NCBI GenBank assembly: GCA_021108215.1
Contig: JAIORK010000026.1
Coordinates: 1-64,000 of the forward strand
Reading direction: 5' to 3'
DNA length: 64,000 nucleotides
Source of the DNA: a bacterium
GTDB lineage: Bacteria; Oederibacteriota; JAAXVQ01; JAUVAV01
A model generated the notes under the pieces. It saw nothing but the letters and a program-made list of their open reading frames with translations, had not been told where the DNA came from and did not search any database. Each line of letters starts with the position of its first letter. Within the stretch, counting starts at the first letter, position 1. The translations under genes were made by a program, and so were the position numbers. Positions 16,801 to 58,459 of this stretch are shown here, piece after piece.

Positions 16801-17551
16801 CGCTTGGGCACAGAGTATTGTGCATACCGGCGGTTCATCTGCGCGTGTTGTGACAGTCGGCGACGGGAACAATGATGGCGAAAATGAGGTCTATACTGCC
16901 AATTCAGACGATCATATCTATCAAGCCAAATGGTCAACCGGCTTTTTCTGGTCACCCCTGACCATTACTGCCAGAGATGCGCTGGGTCTGGTGGTCACCG
17001 ATGCGGACAACAATGGTACGACAGAGCTTTACAGCGCCGGTTCGGATCGCACGGTCTACCAATATCAGTTTACCGGCAGCACCTGGACCGAGACGCCCCT
17101 GCTGGAAGTCCCGGATGATGTATATGCTTTGGCAGCCGGAGATGGGGACAATGACTATTTGCTTGAACTCTATGCGCTGGCAGGCAACCATCATGTGTAT
17201 GAAATCAATGCCGCCTATGCTGTTCCGACAGCCACGCCGACCCGCACACCTGTACTAGGATTTGAAGGACAAATTATTTCCAAGGACCATATCTATGCCG
17301 CTCCCAATCCGGTGCGAGGCCATCACGCCAATATCGTGATCTATACCCAGCAGCCGGCTGAAGTGAGTGCCAAGCTTTTCACCACCTCCAACCAGGAGGT
17401 GCTCTCCTTTAGACGACATTATTCCATAGGCAAGCATACGGAGCGTATTAATATCAGCAATTTGGCCAATGGGGTGTATCTCCTGCTGGTCAGAGCGAAA
17501 GCCAATGGCAAGGAAGAGCGTGTGATCAAAAAAATTGCAATCGTGAAATAA
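13883..17551 (+). pseudogene. Giant beta-helix/beta-propeller secreted protein interrupted by an in-frame TGA
   Basis: ATG 13883 follows AGGAG. The signal peptide (ITLGLFLILITASVAQA) and CSLREA-type start (YTVTSREDSGAGTLREAV) run to TGA at 14267-14269. The same frame then continues without a break to 17551. The full product would be about 1222 residues, with these parts in order: beta-helix to about nt 15600, a Pro/Thr linker (TPTPTPV), an IPT/TIG-like Ig domain (nt about 15930-16190), and seven blades each carrying a D-x-D/N-N-D motif (nt 16270-17210). A C-terminal sorting domain (YAAPNPVRGHH...NLANGVYLLLVRAK) ends in KKIAIVK. The stop removes everything after residue 128. It could be a nonsense mutation, a sequencing error or, less likely, a read-through site; an internal restart at ATG 14291 would lack a signal peptide. 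Confidence 0.8.
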
Positions 17552-26893: not shown

Positions 26894-29329
26894 ATGCTAG
26901 AGTTGTTTTTAGTCCGTCCCAATTTAGGAAATCCGATGATGTTAACACCTGAAAAATTGACACATTTCGAGGTGACGATTGCGGCCAAGAACCCGGTGTT
27001 AAGGAACCTGGCTTTGGTAAGGGGATTGCTAATGGCGAGACCGCCCAAAATAGCCAGAACAGACAAACCCGATAAGACCTATGCGCTGACTATTTTAAAG
27101 GTCAAGAAACTAAAAAATTATGCCGGCTTCAAGGCTGATTACAGTAGCCAAAAATTGCCCATTACCAATACGGATCATCAGTATACGCGTGGGTTTCGAT
27201 TTGAATTTATTGTTGAAGTCGGGTTGACAGAAGCCCGGATTCAACAAATCAAAGACCAGGGCGATTGGCCAGTACTCTGTAATTTGGAATATAATCAAAA
27301 ACATAATATGCATGCACTGTATATTCACAACGCATTGAAAGACAATCAGACGTTTACTATTATTCAACTCTCAGATTTGCATGTGGCGCATCGCAATGAC
27401 ACCATTCCTCAACTGTTGAGTGAGGTCAGAACACCGCAAGAATGCGAGACCTTAAAAAGCCGGTATATTAATTTCAATGATCATCTTCGAACAGCAATTG
27501 CGCAGATTAATCAACGGGTGAAACAGGGCGAGGCGATTGTGGTCGCGGCGACCGGTGATTTGATTGATTACTATTATGATGGGTTTTGGGATAGTGAGTT
27601 TATCTGGAAAAAAGGAAAAGCGATTGGTTGGGAGAATTGTAATTTTAACAAGCTTTACCAAATTCTTATTGGTAGCGATGGAAAGGGTGCTGGGTTGCAG
27701 TGTCCTATTTTTACGGTGTTAGGCAATCATGATTACTTGATTCATGAAACTTTGCCGAATGTGGATATCAATGCGTTATCCATCAAACTGAGTGACAAGG
27801 ATTCTTATCGTGCTTTTGGACTTACTGTGCAAGAGGGCCGGGAGTATTGTTTTTGGGCTTATCCCAAAAACAAAGGCAAATCACCTTCACTGCCTGAGCG
27901 AAAGTTGTATAAGAATTATAGTGAAATGCCAAAAGGCAAACAGCCTTTTCATCTTCGCCGGGATGTCGATTTGGATACGAACCATTCTTACTGGATGGGA
28001 AAACCCCACTATGAACATTTGGGGTTCTATCTTGAGAAAATAAATTATGATGTAAATTTTTCTATAACTTTAGGACAGCAGCAGTTGATCTGTCTGAATA
28101 CCGGGCCGGATCGTTACGGAACAAAAGGGGATTTTATTAGCGCCAGCTCCGGAATCGGGAGCGCACCGGATTATGTACACGACTATATTCACGGTGGACC
28201 GCATAATCGGGGAATTTCAACCGAGCATATCAAGCTGGTAAACACGGCAATGAAAAATGAAACCGCGCGGGGCGCAGTGCTGATTTTTACCCACGCACCC
28301 CTGGTGGGTCTGCAAAATGATCCAACCCAAGGACACGAAGTGTTATTTGAAGAGCAACACGCACAGATGCCCAAGCCGCCGAATCTTGTGAGCCGATTTT
28401 TTAGTAATCTTTATGGATTGAATTTTATGCGCGGTCCGTTTACGTCTGGCATTGCGATGTTGAACAAAATGGGTTATCCACTTCACCAAAAAAAATATTT
28501 TATGCGCGGCCAGCGTGATCCACAGCTCAATTTTGGGTGTGCGGATAGCCTTCAAACCAACACACTATTTCAATTGTTTGGTTTGATACGTCGACCCGCT
28601 GCCAAACCTGTGATGGTACTCTCCGGGCATACCCATAAAGCGCATGAATTTCGGATTGAAGGGCCTAAGACGGTGCAGGAAAAAAAGAATCATATCTATG
28701 CTTATTTTATTGATGACTATTCAAAAAAAATAAAGCAACAAAGCAATCTTGCTAAAAAATGGGTTTGGTTTAAAAAGAACAGTCCCTTGCTGCTGACTTC
28801 CGGAGGCATGAAAAACAAGGTTGCCATGGCACCCAAATATGAGGAACATTATCGGGAAATTAAAATTGAAAACGACAAACTACACAGTATCGATAGAGTT
28901 CTATTAAAAGCAAGGCCTTTGACCACAACCCTAACACCGGGATGTCGACCTGTTGGTTTGCGTGCAGCCAATGGCAACTATGTAAGCGCAGATCATGGTG
29001 GTGGCGGTTGGCTGGTTGCGAATCGCGCCCAGCGTCGTAAATGGGAAACGTTTGAGCTTTTTCAATGGGCAGGGGGCAAAGCTGCCGTGCGATGTCATCA
29101 GGGCGACTATTGGCGTGCCGAAGGCGGCGGTGGTAAGGCGATTAAAGCAGACAAGAAACACATTCAAGCGCATGAGACTTTTTATATGTTTTCCAAGGGA
29201 GCCAATCAGGTTATTTTTCAATCGAAAAATGGACAGTATATTGCGCTGGATCGTGAGAAACGGTTGGTGGCCACATCCAAACAGATCGGCGCAGCCGCGA
29301 AATTTACGCGGGTCGATATCCGGGGATAA
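26894..29329 (+). CDS. Metallophosphoesterase with N-terminal unknown domain and C-terminal beta-trefoil (fascin-like)
   Basis: An 811-residue protein with no signal peptide. Residues about 1-150 form a beta-rich domain I do not recognise. A calcineurin-like metallophosphoesterase follows with all five metal motifs: LSDLHVAHR (about 162), ATGDLIDYY (about 219), VLGNHDYLIH (about 277), THAPLVG (about 466) and SGHTHKAHEF (about 577). Residues about 683-811 resemble a fascin-like/actin-cross-linking beta-trefoil, with repeated 'VGLRAANGNYVSAD', 'AAVRCHQGDYWRAE' and 'VIFQSKNGQYIALD' units. It is probably a phosphodiesterase or phosphatase targeted by a carbohydrate- or protein-binding trefoil. 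AGGAGG precedes the start. Confidence 0.8.
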   Translation: MLELFLVRPNLGNPMMLTPEKLTHFEVTIAAKNPVLRNLALVRGLLMARPPKIARTDKPDKTYALTILKVKKLKNYAGFKADYSSQKLPITNTDHQYTRGFRFEFIVEVGLTEARIQQIKDQGDWPVLCNLEYNQKHNMHALYIHNALKDNQTFTIIQLSDLHVAHRNDTIPQLLSEVRTPQECETLKSRYINFNDHLRTAIAQINQRVKQGEAIVVAATGDLIDYYYDGFWDSEFIWKKGKAIGWENCNFNKLYQILIGSDGKGAGLQCPIFTVLGNHDYLIHETLPNVDINALSIKLSDKDSYRAFGLTVQEGREYCFWAYPKNKGKSPSLPERKLYKNYSEMPKGKQPFHLRRDVDLDTNHSYWMGKPHYEHLGFYLEKINYDVNFSITLGQQQLICLNTGPDRYGTKGDFISASSGIGSAPDYVHDYIHGGPHNRGISTEHIKLVNTAMKNETARGAVLIFTHAPLVGLQNDPTQGHEVLFEEQHAQMPKPPNLVSRFFSNLYGLNFMRGPFTSGIAMLNKMGYPLHQKKYFMRGQRDPQLNFGCADSLQTNTLFQLFGLIRRPAAKPVMVLSGHTHKAHEFRIEGPKTVQEKKNHIYAYFIDDYSKKIKQQSNLAKKWVWFKKNSPLLLTSGGMKNKVAMAPKYEEHYREIKIENDKLHSIDRVLLKARPLTTTLTPGCRPVGLRAANGNYVSADHGGGGWLVANRAQRRKWETFELFQWAGGKAAVRCHQGDYWRAEGGGGKAIKADKKHIQAHETFYMFSKGANQVIFQSKNGQYIALDREKRLVATSKQIGAAAKFTRVDIRG

Positions 29330-32536: not shown

Positions 32537-35500
32537 TTATGCGCGTGGAGCAACTCGCTTAATCTGACGCAAACGCAGTTGATTCGTTTTAACCTGGCGA
32601 TATTCAATCACAATATTCTGAAGGCCTCGTTTGGTTCTTTGTGGACGAATAACGAGTTTTTCGCCAATTTGGTTGATTTTACAGACTAGTTTTTTTGTCT
32701 GTTTTTTACCTGCTCTGTTTTCAACAGTAATGGTAACGGCATCATTGGCAACCGCAGGTTCGATCTCCAAATCACCACCATGTTTTGCGCGTCGCACAAT
32801 TGCAGCTCTGGCTTTGGTAATTGGAAGATCAATTTTATAAAACCACGCATCATTCCCATAGGAATCCCGTTCAACTTCCATATCAAGTAACGCCGTTTTC
32901 TTGGTTCGCTTGGTATGCAGAAAAATCTCAGGACGTGCAGTATGGCTACCTTGAATATGAATACTATCCTGATCCGCGCTGGTCATGGGGACTTGTACTG
33001 ACAAGGCCAGGTTTGGAGTAGACCAGTGGGCATTGGCATTACCACGTTTGGTCCCTTTGAGGTTGACTTTCAATTGTTGCGGCGCTTGACTACGCGCAAC
33101 ATATAATTCCCCTCCTGCTCCAGCCAAAGGAATGCGTGTCAGCGCGCCTGCTTTGGGATAACGCCAACGCGGCTTCCCGCGATAAGCGATTTTTTGCGCT
33201 TGCCCATCCACCTCAATTTGCTGGGTTGATGCATCCCCGGATATGACTAACACTGTAAACATCGCTGCAATATTCGCCACTTTATGCGCCAAGGAGATTT
33301 GAGGACCACTGACCAAAGCATAGGATGTTTCAAAAATATATTCATTCGGAAAAACATTAAATGCGATCAGCTCTTCTGAAAGCAAATCAGTTGTTCCGAA
33401 TATTTTATACTTCGAATCTGGGGAAACCTGAAAAAAATAGTCATTGGGCTTAATTTCTATATAAGTGCAATCATTTTGGTACTTCGTTTTTTTATCATGC
33501 CATGGAATATTCGGATCAGCAGTCCATATTTTATGGGATTGCCCGTTTTTGCCTTCTTCATAAGCATAGGCAACAACCGTATGCATACAATAATCATCAG
33601 CAAAATCAACCATGTTCAGCAGAGGATACTCACCTAAATCAATATATTTTTTTATTTTTTTGAATACTTTTTTCGGCGAAAGCGAATTCTTCTTGCTTTC
33701 GAGTTTTTCTAGGTAATCGTCTACAAAAGCCCAGCCCAATTGATACCCCTGCCGACGTTCAATTCGATGACGATACTGCAAAGACAGATCTTTATTCTCG
33801 ACTTCACGTATATGTTTCAAACTTTTGTACTGATACAAAGGTGTGGAAAAATCCGATTCACCCCTTAAACAGCACACTGCTTCTAAACTCATGCCAAAAC
33901 AGTTTCCTGGCGCAGAGCTACCTTTATACAACAATTCATAAAATGCCGCCTCTCGCAATCGAAACACCGGACGATCAGCATCCAAGTCTGTAAATGTTTC
34001 AGCACATTGTTTCCAACTCAATAGCGGGGTCTTAAAGTTATCAAATGCCCACCAATGATAATTTCGAAAATGCTTTTGAGCTGCCATATTCTCGGATAGA
34101 AGTTCTTGCTTCTGCAAGGCATACTCGAGTTTTATTTTTCGAATAGATTTTATCCCTTTCCCTTTCTTGGTAAGCGAGAGCGTCCCCATGCCTACTTCAG
34201 GAGCAATATCAAAAATATGATCAATCGTAAACGTTTTTTCGATGGTTCCCAAATAATCATTTTTAGATCCTTTATCGTAATCATACACCGATACCTTCAG
34301 TTCTATTTTCGTATCCATGCAAACAGGCGAAATATATTTCGTTTTTCCGGGATAATAGGTTCCCAGCTCAAAAGCTGTATAACCATGTTTTTTGTTTTCC
34401 GGCCGTCGTTTTTTTTGTTCGATCCATTTCCCGTTGATCTTCACACTGGTATACGTAATCAGTTCCGCGCTATTATCATCAAAGAGGCCGTCGTTGATTG
34501 TACCACTTCGGATAAACCCTAATCGCAAACGAACACCAGTCAGTGCGTGACATTTTTTCCCGTCATAGCGGATGATCCCCCGCTCAAAAACATAAAATGC
34601 ATACTTGCCGTGATAAACTGCATTTTGAACAGGAAATCCCAATGTCCCCGCAGGTCCACCCAACGCCATAAATTTTGTGACAACTGGCTTAGGTAGCGCG
34701 ACTGCACCATACTTGACGTGCGAATGAATTCTGCCACCCTCAAATCGTGCAAACCATCCTTTGATAGAGCCATGATCATCTTTTTGCTGTTGATCTGAAC
34801 CTACTGGTCGTTTCAAATAACCTTTTTTAGATCCCAGCGACTCATAATAATCCCGAATCGCCCCATGCAACGCCACGCATCCAAAGTCAGAATTTCGGTA
34901 TAGTGTGCCGCCTGAAAAATGACACTTGCTGCCGCCTTGGGGCATGGGTATCGGATTCGATGTAGGCAAACCCAACCTGCACCATGTTTGTTCCGCACCG
35001 CATAAAACATAATCCGCATACAAATCTCCGTAGATCGCGTGAATACCGCTTTCCTTTGAGAAATAAATTGCGCCATGCTCAAAGTGCGATACGTAACCAA
35101 CCGGAGTTTTAAAAGGAAGTTTTTGCATATCCGTGGTGGGAAATCCCAGTTTGACTTGCATTCCGGCCGTCCTAATATAATATTCGCGCAATTGACCCAT
35201 GACCGCACACGCCCCGGTTTTGGGTGACCAGTAAATCGAACCGCCTTGATATTCACGGTACCGTCCTTGACCCAGTTTTTTTTCCGGGAGCACTGCGTGA
35301 TGCAGCATACTTTGCGTCCCACCCATATTCCAATATTTACTTTCAATTTCGCCCATCCCCTGACTCTCTGCCGCTGCCAGACCGGTTTCCAGATGCGGGG
35401 CAATGCCATCCCAAATACGCACTGCGTGCAGGGACCCTTTGAATTGCTGTTGCAGGCTATGGATGCCGATTCCTAAATGACTCTGTTTACTACCGGTTGC

Positions 35501-36007
35501 TTCCAACTGAGCTGCTTGAAAAACACGGCGTGCTTTAGGAAAAGCATTGATAAAAATCACCAGCGCATCCCCGGTAAAAACAACTGACAACCACGTTGCT
35601 TTATTGAGCACAATTGCACTCGATGTTTTTGCAGCCCCCCAACCCGTCGACAAGTGAATGACAGCATCAACATAATATTGTTTTCCTATTTGCTTCAAAG
35701 CCAATTCCAAGGGCAAGGTCTGACCACTAAAAAGAATCATATTCCCGGTTACATTCTTCTTGGGATGAATCACCATTTCCAAAGTAAATGCACTCATGTT
35801 TTGCAATGAAGAAACATTGGGCAGGGTAACATAGCTGCCAGGACCGGTTAGAACCAGAGAATGCGCAAGGCCTCCCCATGTCTGGGTCTGCAGCGCCGGC
35901 GAAACCGATTGATAGCTGCAATTGAAAACCGTTCCCTTGTAGCCCGTATTACTGTTTTGGGCGAGACCGTTTTTAAAATCATAAAAAAGAATAGGTTGTT
36001 TTGCCAT
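32537..36007 (-). CDS. LamG - LGFP repeats - C2-like - cysteine-peptidase-like multidomain protein
   Basis: A 1156-residue protein with GGGAGG before the ATG and no signal peptide or membrane segment. Residues about 1-205 form a LamG/concanavalin-like fold (GSYVTLPNVSSLQNMSAFTL, FKGSLHAVRIWDG). About 220-495 hold four LGFP-type repeats (VKLGFPTTD, CRLGLPTSN, LKRPVGSD, GTLGFPVQN). About 500-640 look C2-like (VSVYDYDKGSKNDYLG). About 660-900 resemble a papain/C39-type peptidase: Cys near 702 in PGNCFGMSLEA, His near 810 in CMHTVVAYAYEE and Asp near 829 in TADPNIPW. The remainder is beta-rich and basic. LGFP repeats usually bind cell-wall glycans. It could be a wall-binding protease or a toxin-like effector; function is inferred only from domains. 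Confidence 0.7.
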   Translation of the reverse strand: MAKQPILFYDFKNGLAQNSNTGYKGTVFNCSYQSVSPALQTQTWGGLAHSLVLTGPGSYVTLPNVSSLQNMSAFTLEMVIHPKKNVTGNMILFSGQTLPLELALKQIGKQYYVDAVIHLSTGWGAAKTSSAIVLNKATWLSVVFTGDALVIFINAFPKARRVFQAAQLEATGSKQSHLGIGIHSLQQQFKGSLHAVRIWDGIAPHLETGLAAAESQGMGEIESKYWNMGGTQSMLHHAVLPEKKLGQGRYREYQGGSIYWSPKTGACAVMGQLREYYIRTAGMQVKLGFPTTDMQKLPFKTPVGYVSHFEHGAIYFSKESGIHAIYGDLYADYVLCGAEQTWCRLGLPTSNPIPMPQGGSKCHFSGGTLYRNSDFGCVALHGAIRDYYESLGSKKGYLKRPVGSDQQQKDDHGSIKGWFARFEGGRIHSHVKYGAVALPKPVVTKFMALGGPAGTLGFPVQNAVYHGKYAFYVFERGIIRYDGKKCHALTGVRLRLGFIRSGTINDGLFDDNSAELITYTSVKINGKWIEQKKRRPENKKHGYTAFELGTYYPGKTKYISPVCMDTKIELKVSVYDYDKGSKNDYLGTIEKTFTIDHIFDIAPEVGMGTLSLTKKGKGIKSIRKIKLEYALQKQELLSENMAAQKHFRNYHWWAFDNFKTPLLSWKQCAETFTDLDADRPVFRLREAAFYELLYKGSSAPGNCFGMSLEAVCCLRGESDFSTPLYQYKSLKHIREVENKDLSLQYRHRIERRQGYQLGWAFVDDYLEKLESKKNSLSPKKVFKKIKKYIDLGEYPLLNMVDFADDYCMHTVVAYAYEEGKNGQSHKIWTADPNIPWHDKKTKYQNDCTYIEIKPNDYFFQVSPDSKYKIFGTTDLLSEELIAFNVFPNEYIFETSYALVSGPQISLAHKVANIAAMFTVLVISGDASTQQIEVDGQAQKIAYRGKPRWRYPKAGALTRIPLAGAGGELYVARSQAPQQLKVNLKGTKRGNANAHWSTPNLALSVQVPMTSADQDSIHIQGSHTARPEIFLHTKRTKKTALLDMEVERDSYGNDAWFYKIDLPITKARAAIVRRAKHGGDLEIEPAVANDAVTITVENRAGKKQTKKLVCKINQIGEKLVIRPQRTKRGLQNIVIEYRQVKTNQLRLRQIKRVAPRA

Positions 36008-36133: not shown

Positions 36134-37540
36134 TTAATACGCATCCGTATGATGAAAAACTTCAAGTGTTGTGCGGATGATAATTTTAAGATCCAGAACC
36201 AATGACCAATTTTCCACATACCACAGATCATACTTGGTCCGCTCCTCAATCGGGGTATCGCCGCGCAGGCCGTGCACTTGCGCCCAGCCGGTCAAACCGG
36301 CTTTGACTTTGTGCCGGTCAAGGTAACGTGGAATGGATGTTTTAAACTGTTTTACAAAATAGGGGCGCTCCGGGCGGGGTCCGACCAGACTCATCTCACC
36401 CTTCAGGATATTAATCAGTTGGGGCAGCTCGTCTAAAGATGTTCTGCGCATAAAGGAACCAATTTTAGTCGTGCGGGCATCCCCTTTGGTGGCCCAGACC
36501 GGACCGCTCTCTTTTTCCGCATCCATCCGCATGGAACGAAATTTGAAAACCCCAAAAGATTTGTTCCCCCGGCCCACCCGCTCTTGCTTAAAAAACACCG
36601 GACCCGGCGAGGTCAACTTCACAATCAGTGCCAGGAACAGGAATACAGGAAATATTAAAATCATGCCCGGCACGGTAAACGCCAGATCAAACATCCGCTT
36701 GGATACGCGTGCGCTTAATGTTGATAAAGGGGATTCCTTTAACGCAAAAACCGGAATACCGTAAATCTGATCAATTGACATGGGGTTGGTGATAATCCCG
36801 AACAAATCAGAGACAATCTTAAATTCCACTCCGGTTTCCTCAACCGCTAAAAGTATATCCTCCATCTCGGCATGGGCCGTGGCAGGGAGTGCAAAAAGGA
36901 CCTCGTCAATATTATGTTTTTTTATGATATCCGGCAGAGTTTCTAAACCGCCTAGTACCGGCACTGTCGCAAACATCTTGGGAGACTTGTCTTGTTCTGA
37001 AACCACACCGACCAAACGGTATCCCAGACCGGGATGGCGTTTGACTTGTTCGGCAACCCGCTTACTTGTTTGCGTCAGACCCACCAGTACCAAGCGGGAA
37101 ATGCCCACACCCCTGCGCCGCAGCACCACCTGAATCCGCCGTACCCAGGAACGAAATACTGTCGTTAAAATAATGGTAAAGAGCCAGGCATAGATCATCA
37201 CCAAACGAGAGTATTCATCCCGCCGGTAAAAAAAAGTCATCCCGATAATCATCAGGAATGCCACAATCGCCGACCGCGTAATGCGTGAAAATTCATCAAC
37301 CCCGGAGATGCCGCGGCGCTGAATATACAACCCGGCATATTGATAACTGACGAGCACAACCAGCACCACGATCGGCAGGGTTTGCAGATAAATAATCAAG
37401 TCCGGGGCATCGTGGGTCACAGGTACCGGCCAGCCGGAAAAACGCAGGGCATAGGCCAAAAGCAGTGCCGCGCCGGCTGCTATGCTGTCGGCTAAAAAAG
37501 TCAGATAATAAAAATTTTTGGAAAATCCCCGGTGTACCAT
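36134..37540 (-). CDS. Undecaprenyl-phosphate sugar phosphotransferase (WcaJ-type)
   Basis: A 468-residue polyisoprenyl-phosphate hexose-1-phosphate transferase, starting polysaccharide repeat synthesis at the inner membrane. It has four N-terminal membrane helices (residues 10-130), a CoA-binding/Rossmann-like domain (about 140-260), a fifth helix (about 278-300) and the catalytic bacterial sugar transferase domain. Key motifs are [40 protein letters not shown] and GLTGWAQVHGLRGDT. The GLTGWAQV...R..YDLWYVENWS form is typical of the glucose-1-P transferases (TIGR03023). It lies 4 nt downstream of the GT4 gene and ends the cluster. Confidence 0.9.
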   Translation of the reverse strand: MVHRGFSKNFYYLTFLADSIAAGAALLLAYALRFSGWPVPVTHDAPDLIIYLQTLPIVVLVVLVSYQYAGLYIQRRGISGVDEFSRITRSAIVAFLMIIGMTFFYRRDEYSRLVMIYAWLFTIILTTVFRSWVRRIQVVLRRRGVGISRLVLVGLTQTSKRVAEQVKRHPGLGYRLVGVVSEQDKSPKMFATVPVLGGLETLPDIIKKHNIDEVLFALPATAHAEMEDILLAVEETGVEFKIVSDLFGIITNPMSIDQIYGIPVFALKESPLSTLSARVSKRMFDLAFTVPGMILIFPVFLFLALIVKLTSPGPVFFKQERVGRGNKSFGVFKFRSMRMDAEKESGPVWATKGDARTTKIGSFMRRTSLDELPQLINILKGEMSLVGPRPERPYFVKQFKTSIPRYLDRHKVKAGLTGWAQVHGLRGDTPIEERTKYDLWYVENWSLVLDLKIIIRTTLEVFHHTDAY

Positions 37541-45627: not shown

Positions 45628-46764
45628 CTAGCTATTAATCAGCTGCTGATAAACGGCACGATATTTCTTCACAATACTCTCCCAGGAAAAATAATCCGCG
45701 ACCTCTCGGGTGCAGGTTTGTAATTTTTCCACCAGCTCAGGATGGCTCAATACATGCCGGATGCCGGTGGCCAGGGCGGCAGGATCATGCGGCAGCACTC
45801 CCCAATAATGCCGGCCATGCTTGAGGTTTTCCATCTGGATTCTCGGATCAACTGTAATCACCGCCCGATGATGGGCCAACAAGGTTACCAGACTACTGCG
45901 ATTCAACTTGGCACCCTCCGTATACGGCTGGACCGCAACCGCACATTGTGCAAATACTTCGGGTAAATCTTCGGCAGCGAGATATCCGGTAAAACGAACC
46001 CATTCTGTCAATCCATACTCGCGAATAAGGGAATGTATTTTATGATGATAGCTATATTTTTCCGGAGCCAACTCACCGGCAACCAAAACGCCTACCGGAA
46101 AATTTTGTTCCTTTAGCCGCTTGAGTGCCGGCAGCAAAAACTCCCATCCTTTGTTGGGCATGACAGTCCCAAAATGAAGAATCCAAGGGTACTTCCGGTC
46201 CAATGCAATCATTTTTTTATTTGTCCTGTTTTTTTTCTCTTTTAAACCACCCACATTACTCCCCAAGGGAATCACCTGAATTTTTTGTGCATACGCTGCG
46301 GCTGTTTCCAAAACATTTTCCAAGTCCAATGAATTAGTACAAATAATCCGGTGTGCAGCCAATAAGGCCGGTATAAGCCGTATCCGGCCTGCCAGGGTAT
46401 AGGTGGCATATTCGTGTAATGTGACCACACATTTAATCTGCGGTGCGCGCCAACGAATAAGTGCAAATAAAAAATTGGGGGTCAATCCGCGGTCGAATCC
46501 CAAACTGGGATACTGCAAATGACAGATATCCGGCTTCAAAGAGCATATTGCCTGAAAAAGATTCCAAAGCGCTGACAAAGACCATTGCGAAACCACGGCA
46601 TGCACCGTCACGCCATGGTTGTCATCCGTTTTCCGGTCGGTGCGGGTTGTCAAAACCAATACATGCTCACCCTTGGCAGCCAACTGCTTTGAAAGATGAT
46701 GTGTCTGATCACCGACACCGCAGTGCATGGGCGGGTAAGAACCTGAAACCATGCAAATTTTCAT
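45628..46764 (-). CDS. Glycosyltransferase family 4 with altered catalytic motif
   Basis: A 378-residue GT4-fold protein (MKICMVSGSYPPMHCGVGDQ). The donor-domain start WILHFGTVMPNKGWEFLLPA is normal. However, the usual E-x7-E region reads PYTEGAKLNRSSLVTLLAHH, so the second Glu is replaced. A similar N-R-S-S-L version occurs in some active glycosyltransferases. GGCGGAGT precedes the ATG, which overlaps the TGA of the ligase/methyltransferase gene (ATGA). Confidence 0.83.
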   Translation of the reverse strand: MKICMVSGSYPPMHCGVGDQTHHLSKQLAAKGEHVLVLTTRTDRKTDDNHGVTVHAVVSQWSLSALWNLFQAICSLKPDICHLQYPSLGFDRGLTPNFLFALIRWRAPQIKCVVTLHEYATYTLAGRIRLIPALLAAHRIICTNSLDLENVLETAAAYAQKIQVIPLGSNVGGLKEKKNRTNKKMIALDRKYPWILHFGTVMPNKGWEFLLPALKRLKEQNFPVGVLVAGELAPEKYSYHHKIHSLIREYGLTEWVRFTGYLAAEDLPEVFAQCAVAVQPYTEGAKLNRSSLVTLLAHHRAVITVDPRIQMENLKHGRHYWGVLPHDPAALATGIRHVLSHPELVEKLQTCTREVADYFSWESIVKKYRAVYQQLINS

Positions 46765-48869
46765 ACTCCGCCTCTTTTCCCCTTTGTTTGCTTCTTCAGC
46801 ATCACCACCAAATTCATCATCCAGTAAGCGCCGGTTTTATATTCAAAACGGTCCCACTGTTTTGGCGCCAAAGGCCGCAACCAATTATGCAGGGCATACG
46901 TCCAATCGAATTTCCCCTTACGATATCCATAGCCGCTAAAACGTACTACCGTCAAGCCAAGCCGTGCTGCAACACTCCGCATATCCCCCAATGAATACTG
47001 TGTCTCCCATCCCCAAGGCCAGTCACCGCGAAAAACATGCCAAAGTTTTGCCGCCGTATAGGGATTCCAGGTCTGCGGAACATCAACAATCATGGCACCG
47101 TCCGGTTTAAGCAGCCGCATCATCTCGCTCCAAACAGGCGCAGGATCTGCAAAGTGCTCCAGCAACCCTTGCGAAAAAATCAGATCAAATGATGCCGGCG
47201 CCAAACCAGTATGCCGTGCATCCGCCTGGATACAGGTGAGATTTCTTTTCAGCCGGTGTGCGTCCGTTTTCGCCAATTGGATTGCCTGAGATGCGCTGTC
47301 CAGTGCCACCACCCGGACTTGTTTATTTTTGGCAACCACAAGTGCATCCCGTGCCGGACCGCAGCCCATTTCAAGAACTGCGGCATTTTTTTTATGCAAG
47401 AGCGCATAGATAATGAAATCATGCAAGGGTTGTCTGGCCTGAACCCGCAGAGCAATATCTTTTTTCAGCTCTTGCAGCGATTGTGTTTCCCAGACATGTT
47501 CAAAAAATCTGCGCCGCTCCTGATACCCTACTCTGGGCGGGCGTTTCACAAAAACAATCACGGCTGCTAAAAAAAGTGCAGCATGCACCCCCCGGTCATG
47601 AATTAAACAATGTTCTGTAAAATTAGCAATAAAAAAACCGGCCAGCCCTGCAACCAGTGCCCAACCACCTATGGCAGGCCACCCGGGGCGGAGTCGGCCA
47701 ATCTTCCGAAAAAAATAGAGTACCATGCGCATGGTAAACAGCAGCAGGGTCGCCAAACCCAGAAAACCGGTTTCTGCTATCACGGTCAGCCAGAAAGAAT
47801 GCGGATGAGTGATGACACCAATAGGATTGATGTCGCTCCCGGCAACCATGGGCGCAAGAAAACGGTACATACCAGGCCCAATACCCAGCCAAAAATGATC
47901 AGATACCAACTTGCCGGTCACCTGTAAATAATCCAACCGGTCAGCCAAAGAAGCCAACTTGGTCTGCCAAAAAGAGCCGGTAACCAGGTCCGGCAGCTGG
48001 ACCAAAATCAATACGAATCCGGTTGCCCCGAGCGTCATCAACCAAATTATATGTCGTGGTGATTGTTTTGCCAAACCCAGAAGGATAACCAGCAAGGCCC
48101 CTGCCAGGGCAATGAATCCGGTCAGAGAAAACGTGGTGATGAACCCGGCCGTCAAAATAAAGCTGCCGACCAATCCGACAAACCGGAAAAAATTACGCGG
48201 ATGAAAAAGTGCAGCTGCCATGGTAAACGGCAATACCATCCCCACAAAAACCGCAAGTGTGTTGGGTCCAAAACCGGCACTGGCCCTGATCAATTCACCA
48301 TGCACGGTCACAATGGTCAATAAATCAGGATTGGAAATCCGTCCCATCGTGGTCTCAAAAAATCCCTGACCTGCACTCACCATGGCGGCCAAAACCAGCG
48401 CCCAGATAACATGTTCCGCTTCCCGACCCCGCCGGAGCACATGGACACCGACGACCAATACCAGCACCATTTCCAATATTTTCAAACTTCCGCGCAGAGA
48501 CTGCGGCGAGAGGACTCTCACTGCAGCTGCGATCGTGATAATCACAAAAGGAAGTACCCAAATCGCAATGGGAAGCGCACTGCGCTGCCAGGCCCGGTGT
48601 TGTATTATGTTTCTGAACAAACCCGGAAGAATCACAACCAGTAGCAACTCTCCGGTATGCACGGTGCCAAAACCAAACAGTTCCGCCTGATTTTCAAATG
48701 GCACAACCAGAGCAAGCAGGACCAACGCCTGGGAAGGTTGAAAAAAAGCCAGTAACCCGGCACACAGACTCAGTAAAATAATACTGAATCCATTTCCCGA
48801 AAAATACCAAACCGACCAGGCCAGAACGACCGCCAAGGTGGTGATGCCGTCCCAACGCTGCCTTGCCAT
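46761..48869 (-). CDS. O-antigen ligase-like protein fused to a SAM-dependent methyltransferase
   Basis: About 702 residues. The N-terminal 440 or so residues have 10-12 membrane helices and the Wzy_C/WaaL signature around VTGKLVSDHFWLGIGPGMYR and GVITHPHSFWLTVIAETGF. The C-terminal 230 residues are a class I methyltransferase: motif I VLEMGCGPARDALVVA, an acidic post-I VVALD, and FDLIFSQGLLEHFADPAPVW followed by MMRLLKPDGAMIVDVPQTWN. One polypeptide would polymerise or ligate glycans and methylate a sugar or lipid on the cytosolic face. Start ATG 48869 has AGGGAG about 13 nt upstream. A TTG at 48926, overlapping the previous stop by 4 nt, is an alternative start giving 721 residues. Confidence 0.8.
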   Translation of the reverse strand: MARQRWDGITTLAVVLAWSVWYFSGNGFSIILLSLCAGLLAFFQPSQALVLLALVVPFENQAELFGFGTVHTGELLLVVILPGLFRNIIQHRAWQRSALPIAIWVLPFVIITIAAAVRVLSPQSLRGSLKILEMVLVLVVGVHVLRRGREAEHVIWALVLAAMVSAGQGFFETTMGRISNPDLLTIVTVHGELIRASAGFGPNTLAVFVGMVLPFTMAAALFHPRNFFRFVGLVGSFILTAGFITTFSLTGFIALAGALLVILLGLAKQSPRHIIWLMTLGATGFVLILVQLPDLVTGSFWQTKLASLADRLDYLQVTGKLVSDHFWLGIGPGMYRFLAPMVAGSDINPIGVITHPHSFWLTVIAETGFLGLATLLLFTMRMVLYFFRKIGRLRPGWPAIGGWALVAGLAGFFIANFTEHCLIHDRGVHAALFLAAVIVFVKRPPRVGYQERRRFFEHVWETQSLQELKKDIALRVQARQPLHDFIIYALLHKKNAAVLEMGCGPARDALVVAKNKQVRVVALDSASQAIQLAKTDAHRLKRNLTCIQADARHTGLAPASFDLIFSQGLLEHFADPAPVWSEMMRLLKPDGAMIVDVPQTWNPYTAAKLWHVFRGDWPWGWETQYSLGDMRSVAARLGLTVVRFSGYGYRKGKFDWTYALHNWLRPLAPKQWDRFEYKTGAYWMMNLVVMLKKQTKGKRGGV

Positions 48870-48922
48870 TCCGGTATAAGGACTCCCTGGCGCAAACAAC
48901 TTTACTGTCCGGCTATTTATAT

Positions 48923-49408
48923 TCAAAGGAAAGCCACACTATGCTCTTCTTGAACGTAGATAACACTGATAATGATTCCGGACAGTTCAACTTTCTGCGT
49001 ACTGATCAAACACCAGGCACCGGCCTTGAGCCCGGTTGCTTCTCTGGGAAATCCGGGTGTGTTGCGTACAACCTGCAACGCACCTTCCACGCGAAGTTTT
49101 ATAATCACATCCTGTTGTCCGGCCAGTGGTACCGCCAACGGCAATCCGTCTTTGGCCGGAACAGGTTGCACGGATATTATTTCCGCGACTTTATTCCCCT
49201 GGCGGTTTACCACTGCATCTGCGGGTGATATTAAGGCCACAATTTCCGGCAGGGGTTTGGTAACCCGAACCTCAATCACTGCCACTTTAGAAATTTTGGA
49301 AGGTGTTGTTCCCCGCGAGATGGCGTATTGCACCGCCATCACCGCCGCACCCATGGCAACTGTCAAGGCAATCACATCCCACCAGCGAATCGTCCAATCT
49401 GTTTTCAT
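48923..49408 (-). CDS. DUF4330-like membrane-anchored protein
   Basis: A 161-residue protein with AGGAGG before the ATG. One N-terminal membrane anchor (about residues 10-30, WWDVIALTVAMGAAVMAVQY) is followed by a periplasmic beta-rich domain with KVAEIISVQPVPAKDG, VIIKLRVEGA and LKAGAWCLISTQKVELSG. This order fits the DUF4330 family, which is often encoded in polysaccharide loci. Function is unknown. It is directly followed by the ligase/methyltransferase gene, so an accessory role in polymerisation is possible. Confidence 0.65.
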   Translation of the reverse strand: MKTDWTIRWWDVIALTVAMGAAVMAVQYAISRGTTPSKISKVAVIEVRVTKPLPEIVALISPADAVVNRQGNKVAEIISVQPVPAKDGLPLAVPLAGQQDVIIKLRVEGALQVVRNTPGFPREATGLKAGAWCLISTQKVELSGIIISVIYVQEEHSVAFL

Positions 49409-50836: not shown

Positions 50837-52270
50837 TCAGACCTTCCTTTTAAACATCCGGACGAATAATTCCAGATCATCTTTTTCAATTGCCCGGGTG
50901 CCAAAAATCGCAACCGTATAGACCCCGGCTGCGGTTGCCAAAACTAAAAACACATTGAGCTCTCTCATCCAGACAATAACACTCAGCATCAACCCCACCG
51001 ATACCAGCACTCTGAGAACCATCTTAAAAACGGGAACAGGAAACAACAAACGATGCACCGCGGTCAAATACGCGACAAATAAAAATACCTCGGTGACCAC
51101 CGCTGCCATGGCCGCACCCACATGTCCAATACGGGGAATCAGCAACAGGTTGGCGCCAATGCTTACAATGACTGCAATACCGGAAACGACCGCATTGACC
51201 ATTTGACGCTCACACGATATCAGCAAATAAGATAACGCATAATTTAAAAAAATCATACACAATGCCAGGGCGAGCCAGCCGAGCGCTGCACCGGAAGGCG
51301 CATAGGCCTCTCCAAAAATTAAAATCATAAGCGGATTGGCCACTACCCACGCACCGCCGGCAATCGGCGCGCCCAACAGTAAAAGCAGCTTGATGACTTT
51401 AGTATTGGCCCGAATCAATTGTTCCCGGTTTTCGCGAAATAATTTTGAAAATCCCGGAAATGCAGCTATAACCAAAACTGCCGGAATCACCATCAATACC
51501 TCAATACACTTGTGCGCCGCGCCATACCACCCTACCTCGGCACTGGACCTAAGTTTGGCCAAAAGCGTCATATCAATGCGAAAATAAAGATTAATAAAAA
51601 GCGTTGTCACGGTCAGCGGCAGCGCCTGCTGCCAGACATATTTAAAAAAAGTAATGTCCCATTTCCAGGCGCCGGGTAAAAACCGTCCCTTCAGCAACAA
51701 TCCGGCTGCCAGTAAAACTCCCAGCGCACCCGCTGCCACATACGCCATGGCAACCCCTTGAATACCCAGTCCGGCCTGCAAGGCGCCAATACCAAACAGC
51801 AGCAATCCCAATTTCTGGAGTGACATCACCAGAGCTTCATACTGCATTTTTTGATGGGCATGGAAAACCGAATTGATAAACTCAGTAAAGGAATTAAGCA
51901 TAACAAACAATGCCATCCATAAAACCACCCGCACGGTTGCCGCATCGGATGCCGCCCAGCGTACACCAATAAGCACTGTGAAAAAAAACAGCGTTGCCAG
52001 CACCAATTTCATCAACAACAGATTAAAGAAAAGATTTCGGGTTTGTGCCGGATCTTTGGCTGCATCCCGAATGAGCAGCGGATTTAAGCCAAAATCAACA
52101 ATCACGACAAATAACAGTGAAAAGGAAAAAGCAAAATTAATAATACCAAAACTCTCATCCCCCACCACCCGGGCCACCAAAACCACAAAAGCAAAGGAAA
52201 GCAGCCGGATGATCACTTCACCCAGCCCTTTGAACACCGCATTTTTTGCGAATGCCCGCGAAAAACTCAT
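50837..52270 (-). CDS. Wzx-type oligosaccharide flippase
   Basis: A 477-residue MATE-like/MVF-superfamily transporter with 12-14 membrane helices. It begins SFSRAFAKNAVFKGLGEVIIRLLSF and VVGDESFGIINFAFS, the family pattern in which an R-x-x-G-x-x-x-F-G loop follows helix 1. It would flip undecaprenyl-diphosphate-linked repeats across the inner membrane. The start overlaps the stop of the preceding GT2 gene by ATGA, showing tight coupling. Alternative members of the fold include Wzx-like teichuronic acid exporters. Confidence 0.88.
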   Translation of the reverse strand: MSFSRAFAKNAVFKGLGEVIIRLLSFAFVVLVARVVGDESFGIINFAFSFSLLFVVIVDFGLNPLLIRDAAKDPAQTRNLFFNLLLMKLVLATLFFFTVLIGVRWAASDAATVRVVLWMALFVMLNSFTEFINSVFHAHQKMQYEALVMSLQKLGLLLFGIGALQAGLGIQGVAMAYVAAGALGVLLAAGLLLKGRFLPGAWKWDITFFKYVWQQALPLTVTTLFINLYFRIDMTLLAKLRSSAEVGWYGAAHKCIEVLMVIPAVLVIAAFPGFSKLFRENREQLIRANTKVIKLLLLLGAPIAGGAWVVANPLMILIFGEAYAPSGAALGWLALALCMIFLNYALSYLLISCERQMVNAVVSGIAVIVSIGANLLLIPRIGHVGAAMAAVVTEVFLFVAYLTAVHRLLFPVPVFKMVLRVLVSVGLMLSVIVWMRELNVFLVLATAAGVYTVAIFGTRAIEKDDLELFVRMFKRKV

Positions 52271-53010
52271 GATATTTTCCGATTTTTTTTAAAATGGCGC
52301 ATGCGAATCAAAAAAAGATCCACAAACATCTGGAAAGAATCGGCAATCGGGGAAACTTTCGAATCCATGACATTGTTCCATATCACCGGAACCTCAACAA
52401 TCTGTGCTTGGGATTGCCGGGCAAGATAAAGAATTTCAACATCAAACCCAAAACCCTTAATCGTCATTCGGCGGAATATATCTCTGGCAATTTTTCGGGT
52501 AAATAATTTAAAACCACATTGAGTGTCATGAATCCCGGACAATGTAATCAAACGCGCAAAACGATTAAATGTTTTCCCCATCATCTCACGGTAAAACGGC
52601 TGCCGAACAGTAACGGCCGCGCCTTGCAGCGCACGCGAGGCAATCGCCACATCTGCCCCCTGCTGCATCGCCGCCTCCAGTTTCTCAAGCTCCTGGATTG
52701 GTGTGGAAAGATCCGCATCTGTAAACAACACCCGCGCTCCCCGGCTGGCAGCGACACCGCGCCGAATCGAGGCGCCTTTGCCGCGATTGCGTTTATTATG
52801 TAAAACCCGAATATTTAAACCTTGCTCCGCAAAACGCCGGGCAAGGCCGACTGTATTGTCTGAGCTGCCGTCACTAACCACAATAACTTCATACGAGTCC
52901 TCTCGTTTTTGCAAATACGTCTGAATGGTCATCAGCGTTTTAGCCAGCCGGGCTTCTTCATTGTACGCCGGAACAACAATAGAAAGTGCCGGCCGGGAAA
53001 TATGTGTCAT
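52267..53010 (-). CDS. Dolichyl-phosphate glucosyltransferase-like GT2
   Basis: A 247-residue GT2 of the DPM1/ALG5-like group. It has LSIVVPAYNEEARLAKTL, VVSDGSSDNT, NRGKGASIRRGVAASRGARV and the DxD motif in FTDADLSTPIQELEKL. This is followed by IHDTQCGFKLFTRKIA, diagnostic of polyprenyl-phosphate-sugar synthases. It probably makes undecaprenyl-phosphate glucose or mannose, which would serve as donor for the GT39 membrane enzymes at 41118 and 59399. Both neighbours overlap it by 4 nt (ATGA). Confidence 0.88.
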   Translation of the reverse strand: MTHISRPALSIVVPAYNEEARLAKTLMTIQTYLQKREDSYEVIVVSDGSSDNTVGLARRFAEQGLNIRVLHNKRNRGKGASIRRGVAASRGARVLFTDADLSTPIQELEKLEAAMQQGADVAIASRALQGAAVTVRQPFYREMMGKTFNRFARLITLSGIHDTQCGFKLFTRKIARDIFRRMTIKGFGFDVEILYLARQSQAQIVEVPVIWNNVMDSKVSPIADSFQMFVDLFLIRMRHFKKNRKIS

Positions 53011-54344
53011 GATGGCAATGGCTCCGGGCGTGGTTGATTGCTTTCCATGTAGGCAACAATTGCGATGCCCAGACCGACGAGCACGCCAAAATGAATACCC
53101 CGGGCATACATACTAAGAACATCAAAAAAATTATGAATTAAAAACGCCAAAACAGCACCGATCACACCGGAGAGCAATTGCCGCTCATAGTCCGGCGGGT
53201 TGTTAAAAAAACTTCGCCCCATTCGAAAAAGCATTGAAAAACACAGCACTAAAAATGCCACCAATCCCAGCAGACCGATTTCAATCCATATTTGTAAATA
53301 CCAGGAATGAATATGTTTATTGATCGCTTCCCAGGCATAATATTTTTCATCAAAATATTTCCGGATATTATGCTCATACCCGCCCGCACCGAATCCCACC
53401 CAGGGATGCTGCCGAATCATTTTTACCGCCGTCTTGATGCAAACACCGCGAAAACCGAAGGAATCTTCTTTTTCCGGCTGGGTAAAGGACGCCACCCGGT
53501 GCATGACCGCTTGCCGGGTCTTTTCCAGCGGCCCTTGATATAAAACCACCACAGTCACGACCACAGTTATAACCAAGGCAATAATCATCTTCATTTTTTT
53601 GGGAATATTCAAATAAATCAGGATGCCGCCGATAAGCGTCATTGCCAGCCAGCCGCCACGCGAGAAAGTAAAGATAAGCGCAGTAAGCATAATAACCGCT
53701 AAAAAACCAACCGCCATCCGCTGTCCAATTTTTTTCATTTCCACAAATTGAATAAAGGCTATCGGTATTGCCAGAATTAAGTACCCGGCAAACTGGTTGG
53801 GATGACCGAAGGTAGAGTACGCCCGCATGGTCGCACCCCTGTCCACTGTAAAAATATATTTCCCTGTATTGAACCCGGCTTCCGGACCGGCAATCGTCTG
53901 CACAATTCCTATAATCGATGCAATCACTGCCGCCCCGATAATGACGGCGGCGATCATTTTCATCTCCCGGCGGGTCACAACCACGCTGAAAACCAGCCAG
54001 GCAGTTAAAATAATTTCCATCCAGCGCAGCCACTGCTTGATGACAGTGTTAAACTGCTCGGCATTGACAGCCGAAATAAACACTGCCAGGCTAAATGCGG
54101 CAATTGCAATAATCCAAAACCTGGAAAATAAACGCGTAACATTTCCTCCCCGCAAACGATTTAACCCAACTCCGATTAAAACTGCAGAAAGAACCATTTG
54201 ATTGAGATAAACCGTTAAACCAATTTCAAAGGGCAAATCATAGGGAATGCAGGCCATGAGGAACAATACCCCCAACAGGGGATAAAAAAATGCGCTCACT
54301 CCGGCACCCACAAAAACTGCCGAAATGACTATACCGACTACCAT
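53007..54344 (-). CDS. O-antigen ligase/polymerase (Wzy_C family)
   Basis: A 445-residue integral membrane protein with about 12 helices. It carries the Wzy_C signature: STFGHPNQFAGYLILAIPIA in the first periplasmic part, FTFSRGGWLAMTLIGGILIY, and the large loop with HPWVGFGAGGYEHNI and the catalytic His-region INKHIHSWYLQIWIEIGLLG. It would ligate or polymerise undecaprenyl-linked glycan at the periplasmic face. The ATG at 54344 overlaps the TGA of the upstream sugar transferase (TGATG). A TTG one codon earlier is also open. Confidence 0.88.
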   Translation of the reverse strand: MVVGIVISAVFVGAGVSAFFYPLLGVLFLMACIPYDLPFEIGLTVYLNQMVLSAVLIGVGLNRLRGGNVTRLFSRFWIIAIAAFSLAVFISAVNAEQFNTVIKQWLRWMEIILTAWLVFSVVVTRREMKMIAAVIIGAAVIASIIGIVQTIAGPEAGFNTGKYIFTVDRGATMRAYSTFGHPNQFAGYLILAIPIAFIQFVEMKKIGQRMAVGFLAVIMLTALIFTFSRGGWLAMTLIGGILIYLNIPKKMKMIIALVITVVVTVVVLYQGPLEKTRQAVMHRVASFTQPEKEDSFGFRGVCIKTAVKMIRQHPWVGFGAGGYEHNIRKYFDEKYYAWEAINKHIHSWYLQIWIEIGLLGLVAFLVLCFSMLFRMGRSFFNNPPDYERQLLSGVIGAVLAFLIHNFFDVLSMYARGIHFGVLVGLGIAIVAYMESNQPRPEPLPS

Positions 54345-55720
54345 CAATAAGCACCCTTCCCAAACAAAACTGCAGGAAGCGTTCTGAGCATAATCACCAC
54401 ATCCAACAACAATGATTGATTCTTGATGTAATATAAATCATATTTAATATTCTCTTCAAGCGGTTTATCCGTCCGCCCCGAGACCTGCCACAATCCGGTT
54501 ACGCCCGGGAGAACAAGCAGCCGATAACGGTATATGGCTTTATATTTTTCCACAATAAACGGCATCTCGGGCCGCGGCCCGACAACGCTCATATCCCCTT
54601 TAATCACATTGATCAGTTGCGGCAGCTCATCCAGGCTGGTTTTGCGTAAAAAGGCACCCAGCCGGGTCACGCGCGGGTCACCTTTACCCTTGGGTGTTTT
54701 GGCGTATTGCGGTGCATCAACATACATGGAACGAAATTTATAAATCAAAAATTTCTTGCCGTGGTAGCCCACTCGCTCTTGGCGAAAAAACACCGGTCCT
54801 TTGGACTCTGCCTTGATGGCAAGCATAATCAACACCCAAATCGGCAATGAAATCATCAATGCTACAATGCAAACCACCTCATCCACAAACCGTTTCAAAA
54901 CCTTGTAGCCGCCCCCAAGCTGACCTTCCTGCAGGCTGCTGATCAAGCCTTCCAGTCCCGCACCCGAGGGAGCGTCAAATCCGGAGAGATCAAATGCTTC
55001 GGTCACATTGCGGTGCGAAATGCCATATTCATTAAAAAGCTCATTGACTTCCAACGTATGTTTATAATTTTTAACTGAATCGGATACGATCACACCATCA
55101 ATTTCACCGCGCTTAAAGCGCGCTAGTACGGCCTGATCAATTTTTTCCTGGAGTTTTCCAATCTTCGGCGAAATCCCCCGGGGCAGGACAACGCGCGCAA
55201 CAATGTTGTAGCCTAACTGAGGATATTGTTTAAGCAATTTATGAATCGCCTTCACTTTTTCTTCAGAACCGACTACAGCCACATGCCGTTGATTCCACCC
55301 GTGGGATCGCATGCGCCTTAAAAACCGGTACCACAAAAACCGGGTCGTAATCACGAAACAGTTTGTAACAATCCAAACAATCAATACCAAAACCCGCGAC
55401 TGTTCGTAAAGTTTAAAAAAGAATGTCAACGCCAAAGCCATCAGCAATGCATAGGTTAAGGATTTAATAATATTGGAATATTCCTCAATCATGGAGAGAT
55501 CCCGAATATCGCGGTACAACCCCTGTTTTCCAAAAAAAGCGATAATAATCACGATCAAAATGGAAAAAGAGACTATGTATTCCCCAACCGGCTGTACATT
55601 AACAAACATCTCCAGCCGGCTCCGAATCCAATAAGCAATCCGAAAAGAGAGCAGCAATGTTATTAAATCAATACACACCAGCATCAATGTCATAATAAAG
55701 TGGTTGGTCTTGGCCTTCAT
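54344..55720 (-). CDS. Second polyprenyl glycosylphosphotransferase
   Basis: About 458 residues from [20 protein letters not shown]. It has the TIGR03025 layout: four N-terminal helices, a nucleotide-binding-like middle domain ([20 protein letters not shown]), a further helix (about 285-305) and a catalytic domain with [55 protein letters not shown] and [20 protein letters not shown]. The [11 protein letters not shown] form differs from the GLTGWAQVHGL form at 36134, so the first sugar may differ. AGGAATCC precedes the chosen ATG; the longer frame to 55786 lacks one. Confidence 0.88.
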
Positions 55721-55821
55721 TGTGGATTCCTGTTCTATGAATGCGTTTTGCCTATTATCATACCATTTTTCATAAATATTTCTCAATGGATATGCTTGTT
55801 TTGAAAGGTTTTTTTAGTCTT

Positions 55822-57029: not shown

Positions 57030-57824
57030 TTATTCGATCATTCCCAAAATTAATTTTTTATCAAACAATTTCAATTCATTTTCATCTTCAAGAAAACGGC
57101 CTACATCTGCCCTTGCTTTTGCCATATCTATTTTTTCAAACCGTTCCCGCATAAAAACTTTCATATTATCTGAACTAATTTCAGGATGATTGTCCCGGGT
57201 CTGTTTGATGGCATTATTTAAAAATAAATAATTTGGTTTTACTTTTTTGCCCAAGTACCAAATCAAGTCATAAATATCGCGGCCTTTGGTGTAAGGGCGA
57301 AAAAACAGAGCATGCAGCTTCCCGGCAAATAAGGACGGCAAATCATAATGTTGAATAACAGTTAAATACTCTCCCGTAACCGGCGTCACTTGGATTACCC
57401 CGCCTTTGGGTGGGCGGACATCCACTTCCAGTTTGATGGATAATTTTTGCCCAGCCAAAGGACTAAGACTCAATTCTTTCAATAATCCCGGGAATTTTAA
57501 AAAACCACTATTTACCGTATTTTTTTCCTTGTGCGCATGCTCAGTTTCCAGTCCATTCAGCCGCAATTCCTGAATTATTTCCTTACTCAATTTCGAAAAA
57601 GAGTACCCCTTGCTTTTGATCAAAGAAAAATCCATATCCTCGCTAAACCGGCGAAGATTGTACAAAATTCGCAAAGCTGTCCCGCCAATAAAAACCAGAT
57701 GCTCAAACATACCCTTATTAAAAATAATTCTTAAAATCCATCGTTGTAAATATTCTCTGGCCAGATTCAATTTTTCTCTATCATCCCGGCCTGCCCCGGC
57801 TACGGCCAATAAAGTGTCCTTCAT
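57030..57824 (-). CDS. AbiEii-family nucleotidyltransferase toxin
   Basis: About 264 residues of the nucleotidyltransferase-fold AbiEii/AbiGii family. The signature is FIGGTALRILYNLRRFSEDM directly followed by DFSL (G-G-T-A-L...R-x-S-x-D-x-D). The downstream core includes PSLFAGKLHALFFRPYTKGR and DIYDLIWYL, where the conserved K and D-x-x-D lie. These enzymes transfer nucleotides to tRNA and act as type IV TA or abortive-infection toxins. The start at ATG 57824 overlaps the antitoxin stop as ATGA with GAAGGA before it; a GTG at 57842 is an alternative start. Confidence 0.85.
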   Translation of the reverse strand: MKDTLLAVAGAGRDDREKLNLAREYLQRWILRIIFNKGMFEHLVFIGGTALRILYNLRRFSEDMDFSLIKSKGYSFSKLSKEIIQELRLNGLETEHAHKEKNTVNSGFLKFPGLLKELSLSPLAGQKLSIKLEVDVRPPKGGVIQVTPVTGEYLTVIQHYDLPSLFAGKLHALFFRPYTKGRDIYDLIWYLGKKVKPNYLFLNNAIKQTRDNHPEISSDNMKVFMRERFEKIDMAKARADVGRFLEDENELKLFDKKLILGMIE

Positions 57825-58459
57825 TTTTCCATCCTTCGGCACAAGGCCTCTGCTGCCAACCGCATATCTGCGCGCTGAAACAATGCAGCGTATCCACGAA
57901 TTTTATTCGGATCTAATGTTTCAACATGTTGCAATCGGAGATTTTCTTCCCAAATTTTTTCATCCACTGTTGCCAGTCGAAATTCGCGATGTAAATATAT
58001 ATAATCAATTAATGCTTTTTCAGGCATTGCAATAGAATAGACAGCTGACTGATTTCCATCCTGATGCTGACGATAACCTGAAAATGCTTCCAGTTTTACA
58101 TGTTGAAAAACAAAGCGCCCCAATTCATTTTGAAATGTTTTTGTTTTTCTGGTTGTAATACAAGTGATCGCAGTCGTTTTTTCCGGGATAAGACCATAAA
58201 AAGATAACGCAGTTTCCAAACTTACATAGGCCGGCGAATATAAATTCATAGCAATCGCCATCAGGGACAAATTCATCTTGCGGTCATCTTCATTTAAAAT
58301 ATACACACTCTTGCGCAATCTAATAATTTTTTTTTGACGAATCCAGTTCTGAAGCTGATTTTTTAAAGTATGGGGATTCTCCTGAAACAGCAATTTCATC
58401 GCTTCCCCGGAAATCACCGGTAAATGCTGCACCTTTTGTCGAAAATCATCGTATTTCAT
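57821..58459 (-). CDS. AbiEi-type antitoxin/transcriptional regulator
   Basis: A 212-residue protein with an N-terminal winged-helix domain (LKNQLQNWIRQKKIIRLRKS, VYIL) and the AbiEi middle domain: YSPAYVSLETALSFYGLIPE, AITCITTRKTKTFQNELGRF and YSIAMPEKALIDYIYLHR. AbiEi antitoxins repress their own operon by binding inverted repeats; a 38-bp dyad lies just upstream at 58463-58500. AAGGAAAC precedes the ATG. It is coupled to the AbiEii toxin gene by an ATGA overlap. The pair is inserted in the polysaccharide locus. Confidence 0.85.
   Translation of the reverse strand: MKYDDFRQKVQHLPVISGEAMKLLFQENPHTLKNQLQNWIRQKKIIRLRKSVYILNEDDRKMNLSLMAIAMNLYSPAYVSLETALSFYGLIPEKTTAITCITTRKTKTFQNELGRFVFQHVKLEAFSGYRQHQDGNQSAVYSIAMPEKALIDYIYLHREFRLATVDEKIWEENLRLQHVETLDPNKIRGYAALFQRADMRLAAEALCRRMEK

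Follow-up and report, generated by a model that had tools for sequence, protein, structure and literature searches.

A Wzy_C-family membrane protein joined to a class I methyltransferase domain in a Wzx/Wzy-type glycan locus of the Oederibacteriota

Introduction

In a window of 64,000 nucleotides (positions 1 to 64,000 of contig JAIORK010000026.1, assembly GCA_021108215.1, phylum Oederibacteriota), one reading frame on the reverse strand runs from an apparent O-antigen ligase-type membrane protein into an apparent methyltransferase. Wzx/Wzy assembly takes place on the periplasmic side of the membrane and SAM is cytosolic. The locus raises the question of whether such a join is real, where it came from, and what one polypeptide might do with both halves.

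The fused reading frame and its domains

46761..48926, reverse strand: fused Wzy_C-methyltransferase ORF, 721 aa if read from its TTG; an alternative ATG would place the start at 48869
47541..48857, reverse strand: predicted membrane domain, residues ~24-462, ~14 predicted helices, WaaL-like fold (AF2 models; Foldseek)
47745..48164, reverse strand: Pfam Wzy_C stretch, residues 255-394
48285..48287, reverse strand: Arg214, in a predicted periplasmic segment before helix 222-240, invariant in the 7-sequence alignment
47766..47801, reverse strand: H376-X10-G387, the HX9-10G motif
47436..47540, reverse strand: junction, K/R-rich and predicted cytosolic where it leaves the last helix, continuing as a linker of variable length (alignment, loop analysis)
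46791..47504, reverse strand: putative class I SAM methyltransferase domain, residues ~475-712 (profiles, alignment, structure model)
47154..47159, reverse strand: Glu590-His591, the catalytic-region EH

The start at 48869 given in the initial annotation is the first in-frame ATG, and the TTG at 48926 lies further 5'; from there to 46761 there is one frame with zero internal stops. If the TTG is used, the gene overlaps the upstream stop as TTGA, and at its 3' edge it overlaps the next glycosyltransferase gene as ATGA, an arrangement on both flanks that fits an operon.

Pfam places Wzy_C at residues 255-394 (E 1.1e-14, 54.9 bits against a curated cut-off of 31.7) and Methyltransf_11 at 518-614 (E 2.8e-19, above its curated cut-off), and several class I methyltransferase profiles cover ~512-619 over their full length, also above curated cut-offs. 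Both catalytic signatures are invariant in all seven fusions described below: the HX10G histidine and glycine in the membrane half, and E519, G521, G523, D543, D569, E590 and H591 in the methyltransferase half. The initial annotation's description of a Wzy_C/WaaL-type protein joined to a complete class I methyltransferase with motif I and an invariant EH is therefore borne out by Pfam and by the 7-sequence alignment. By its profile, the HX9-10G histidine of its predicted large periplasmic loop and its modelled WaaL-like fold, the protein belongs with the Wzy_C (PF04932) O-antigen ligase superfamily, and the C-terminal half, with motif I, a post-I acidic residue and a complete domain, appears from its sequence to be a class I SAM methyltransferase.

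Conservation of the join

The search for the same fusion proposed in the initial annotation recovered it, full length and in a single frame, in six further independently assembled genomes of the same order (G001-G006; 42-51% identity), five of them in the family to which the window belongs and the sixth in a different family. A single-protein query of the genome contigs gave no match, and it was an alignment-based query that recovered these relatives. The missed stop at about 47,560 that the initial annotation had named as grounds for doubt is absent: this position falls inside the final helix of the membrane half, and none of the seven genomes has its frame interrupted there, the conserved fusion ruling out a missed stop or frameshift. 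A flag for an internal TGA in three relatives proved to be the terminal stop only.

That two separate genes were joined by sequencing or assembly error has one observation in its favor. The order also includes G007, a MAG of 84% completeness, in which the methyltransferase half occurs by itself where a contig ends, next to an HU-like gene (identified by eye), and the Wzy half was not found elsewhere in this incomplete genome. The G007 contig, however, looks chimeric, as it runs into the HU-like gene with the methyltransferase lacking an obvious start codon. With the join present in six further assemblies made independently, we reject the error and regard its probability as negligible. Between two members of one genus (G001 and G005), dN/dS comes to ~0.14 in the membrane half and ~0.17 in the methyltransferase, with the junction at ~0.28; by this measure both halves appear to be under purifying selection, the methyltransferase about as strongly as the membrane half. 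Since the join is real and common to related uncultured bacteria, it represents a genuine, undescribed variant of surface-sugar machinery; we found no report of a Wzy_C-methyltransferase fusion in the literature searched, where it is apparently undescribed.

Membrane half and topology

AF2 models were built on the seven sequences and are of moderate quality (pLDDT 71 and 79). The model of the membrane half (pLDDT 79, pTM 0.83) has as its best Foldseek match the solved WaaL 7TPG (7tpg_B; E 1.3e-6, TM 0.52/0.58), followed by the SEDS protein FtsW, and a PDB sequence search with the same half gave zero matches even at E 10. Both WaaL and the Wzy_C-type polymerase Wzy-beta require the histidine of the HX9-10G motif, and Wzy-beta has its N- and C-termini in the cytoplasm (PMC4815439).

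Loops assigned to the inside of the membrane carry 0.19 K+R per residue against 0.07 for those assigned outside, and with the motif loops taken as periplasmic, the helix count leaves the N- and C-termini both inside. The methyltransferase begins 12-13 residues past the last helix, after which the linker length differs by up to ~22 residues among genomes. The topology check called for in the initial annotation thus predicts, by the positive-inside rule and the helix count, that the methyltransferase lies in the cytosol.

The Wzy_C profile does not tell polymerases and ligases apart. The locus holds a Wzx and two Wzy_C proteins, and a plausible ligase, a Wzy_C-GT9 protein, is encoded elsewhere in the genome as a rival candidate for that role; together with the nearby Wzx, this leads us to lean slightly toward a polymerase for the fused membrane half.

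The glycan locus

45628..46764, reverse strand: GT4 glycosyltransferase directly downstream of the fusion, ATGA overlap (Pfam, synteny)
48923..49408, reverse strand: conserved small protein, its DUF4330 match weak and under the cut-off; the fusion's immediate upstream neighbor in 6/6 relatives
50837..52270, reverse strand: Wzx-type flippase (Pfam, synteny)
53007..54347, reverse strand: second, stand-alone Wzy_C protein of the fusion's locus (Pfam, synteny, tree)
54344..55786, reverse strand: polyprenyl-phosphate hexose-1-phosphate transferase, an initiating enzyme (profile match)
36134..37540, reverse strand: second initiating enzyme, WcaJ-type (above NCBIfam cut-off)

The locus extends over 36.1-57.0 kb and includes two initiating phosphoglycosyltransferases, Wzx, the two Wzy_C proteins, GT2, GT4 and GT9 glycosyltransferases, and PMT-like and DUF4330-like proteins. 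This Wzx/Wzy-type locus is largely syntenic around the fusion in the relatives' contigs that were compared. LpxC is present in the window's genome (97% complete), while Wza-type Poly_export and the Wzz family were not detected there, the Wzz search having used PF02706, which may miss divergent regulators.

The locus is bordered by an AbiEi/AbiEii type IV toxin-antitoxin pair (57030-58459) and adjoined by a gene for a 1156-aa protein with LGFP repeats and a laminin-G-like domain (32537-36007). Elsewhere in the window are large secreted proteins with Por_Secre_tail (type IX sorting) domains (82-3114 and 14291-17551) and a metallophosphatase-like protein with a C-terminal fascin/DUF7910 domain (26894-29329).

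Origin of the fusion

The fused methyltransferases and the G007 half form one clade in the tree (support 100/99), the remaining relatives being stand-alone. A stand-alone Wzy_C gene from another family of the phylum (G009) groups with the fused membrane halves (99/97) on a long branch; in the Wzy_C tree, L094_G003_WzyC2 duplicates the fused protein, so that two 'changes' shown there are not real. The G009 gene sits between another Wzy_C gene and Wzx and is preceded by a small protein that, by eye, resembles the DUF4330-like one. The G009 arrangement is the pre-fusion layout, and we infer that the methyltransferase joined once, in the stem of the window's order.

The best matches of the methyltransferase are small-molecule and sugar methyltransferases, and its best solved relatives are small-molecule enzymes. 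Ten neighbors of stand-alone relatives were scanned, with GT4 found in four, TMEM260-like proteins in two, and RtcB or HypD in two; as these last are unrelated to glycans, the subfamily is not exclusively glycan-associated. Matches in the Acidiferrales considered as distant fusions are actually stand-alone methyltransferases, and these adjoin glycosyltransferase genes. Large-frame methyltransferase matches in other phyla were set aside as fusions, having no membrane segments or no Wzy_C match, and plasmids gave weak matches only. The GT4 downstream of the fusion has no special closeness to the GT4s beside stand-alone methyltransferases. As a separate observation, an Acidiferrales GT4 adjoining a stand-alone relative apparently continues, by eye, into a methyltransferase domain (639-666 aa; L038:1672-3591, L039:8617-10617).

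Other Wzy_C architectures

The initial annotation held that Wzy_C/WaaL proteins are normally stand-alone, a view contradicted here. The window's genome has seven Wzy_C proteins with eight Wzy_C domains, and five of the seven carry other domains: Wzy_C-MT, Wzy_C-GT9, two Wzy_C-TPR and one Wzy_C-Wzy_C-TPR. Wzy_C is present in 218 of 240 genomes, many of the proteins being long, and a C-terminal extension of >200 residues follows Wzy_C in ~30 of 40 long frames examined elsewhere. Of ten such C-terminal ends inspected, most resemble TPRs, and in several the repeats are preceded by an additional hydrophobic segment. A methyltransferase profile made here matched none of 40 long Wzy_C frames from outside the order, which are a sample in which other methyltransferase families might be missed.

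Two of these architectures may be described further. The fusion of Wzy_C with Glyco_transf_9 in the window's genome (760 aa; G000:C1:119731-122007, L117:1232-3511) occurs in all eight genomes of the order at 57-69% identity, and a similar 707-residue frame is found in another phylum (G047). In several other genomes, including other families of the phylum, Wzy_C and GT9 are adjacent separate genes (in G020, two adjacent ORFs). With Wzy_C-MT and Wzy_C-GT9 counted together, a WaaL-fold protein has been fused to a cytosolic glycan enzyme at least twice here. A 1136-aa single frame has two Wzy_C domains and then TPRs (G000:C5; L114:1959-5366), and Wzy_C frames of ~1030-1150 aa recur across the phylum.

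Possible functions of the fused protein

We consider it probable, though well short of assured, that the protein is a bifunctional inner-membrane enzyme that methylates an undecaprenyl-PP-linked glycan on the inside and polymerises or ligates it on the outside. The C-terminal cytosolic domain would use SAM to O-methylate a sugar of the lipid-linked glycan ahead of flipping by Wzx, and the N-terminal WaaL-fold domain, with ~14 predicted helices and its termini inside, would transfer the lipid-linked glycan in the periplasm, as polymerase or ligase, by way of the invariant His376 and arginines. Because the Wzy step is periplasmic and SAM is cytosolic, the methyltransferase could act only before the flip, on the lipid-linked unit or a precursor, and most simply it would decorate the unit as assembly proceeds. 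Placing both domains in one protein would, we propose, tie modification to assembly 1:1; the methyl acceptor, the order of the steps and coupling as the purpose of the fusion are what we infer.

Methylation was suggested in the initial annotation to cap or tune chain length. The predicted topology excludes direct capping of a growing chain, and what survives is an effect through pre-flip methylation of the lipid-linked unit, a speculative route that would call for sub-stoichiometric methylation of the acceptor position. In that case the methyltransferase would methylate the acceptor hydroxyl of a fraction of the units in the cytosol; a methylated unit, once flipped, could donate but not accept and would become the distal end, so that the methylated fraction would set chain number and length. 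In ABC-transporter systems such as that of WbdD, chains are terminated by methylation (PMC3482155), and the window's genome gave no Wzz-family match, but WbdD belongs to a cytosolic-growth pathway rather than Wzx/Wzy, a divergent regulator may have escaped PF02706, and nothing links the methyltransferase to a terminal sugar; we think this kind of chain control distinctly unlikely. It is also unlikely that the membrane half merely tethers a methyltransferase whose substrate is some other membrane-near molecule (a lipid, core sugar or small molecule). The small-molecule character of the best solved relatives and the non-glycan neighbors of some stand-alone ones would suit a tether, whereas the Wzy_C catalytic residues are invariant and the whole glycan locus travels with the fusion. 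For a fused cytosolic domain it is conceivable that the methyltransferase acts without catalysis, as a SAM sensor or scaffold through which the Wzy_C half is regulated; nothing direct favors this, and it seems very improbable given the invariance of motif I, the acidic residues and EH, and purifying selection about equal to that on the membrane half.

A broader proposal, and a quite doubtful one, is that premethylation of lipid-linked units by a Wzy_C enzyme's own cytosolic methyltransferase provides Wzz-independent control of chain number and length in this uncultured order, and that WaaL-fold enzymes more generally have repeatedly gained cytosolic glycan enzymes at the C-terminus (MT, GT9), through which the two membrane faces are coupled.

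Fusions point to enzymes working together, and under the bifunctional-enzyme reading that we prefer, this one would link, across the membrane, modification in the cytosol with an assembly step in the periplasm. For a lineage that has no cultured models, it speaks for methylation being integral to a conserved surface glycan, and as a single gene it gives a handle on how modification is coordinated with polymerisation or ligation.

Comparison with known systems

The window protein resembles the WaaL O-antigen ligase (7TPG) and other Wzy_C-family GT-C enzymes in its Pfam Wzy_C match, HX10G motif, fold, and Und-PP-glycan locus with Wzx and initiating transferases, and differs from them in its C-terminal, predicted cytosolic methyltransferase. 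Stand-alone class I methyltransferases of glycan clusters (Methyltransf_11) share a subfamily with a WPWGWET-type motif, and several adjoin GT4 genes, but these are unfused. The Wzy_C-TPR proteins common in the phylum and beyond also have a long C-terminal extension, although in these TPRs follow, in several after an extra hydrophobic segment, whereas in the window protein an apparent enzyme comes directly after the last helix, on the predicted cytosolic side. The Wzy_C-GT9 protein of the same genomes is likewise a Wzy_C protein fused at its C-terminus to an enzyme using a cytosolic substrate, with a glycosyltransferase replacing the methyltransferase and at another locus. In WbdD, the bifunctional kinase/methyltransferase of E. 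coli O8/O9a, a methyltransferase is also joined to another O-polysaccharide enzyme; Pfam found no kinase domain match in the fused ORF, and WbdD is the terminator of an ABC-transporter pathway with cytosol-grown chains, while the partner of the methyltransferase in the window would be a periplasmic-face membrane glycosyltransferase in a Wzx/Wzy-type locus.
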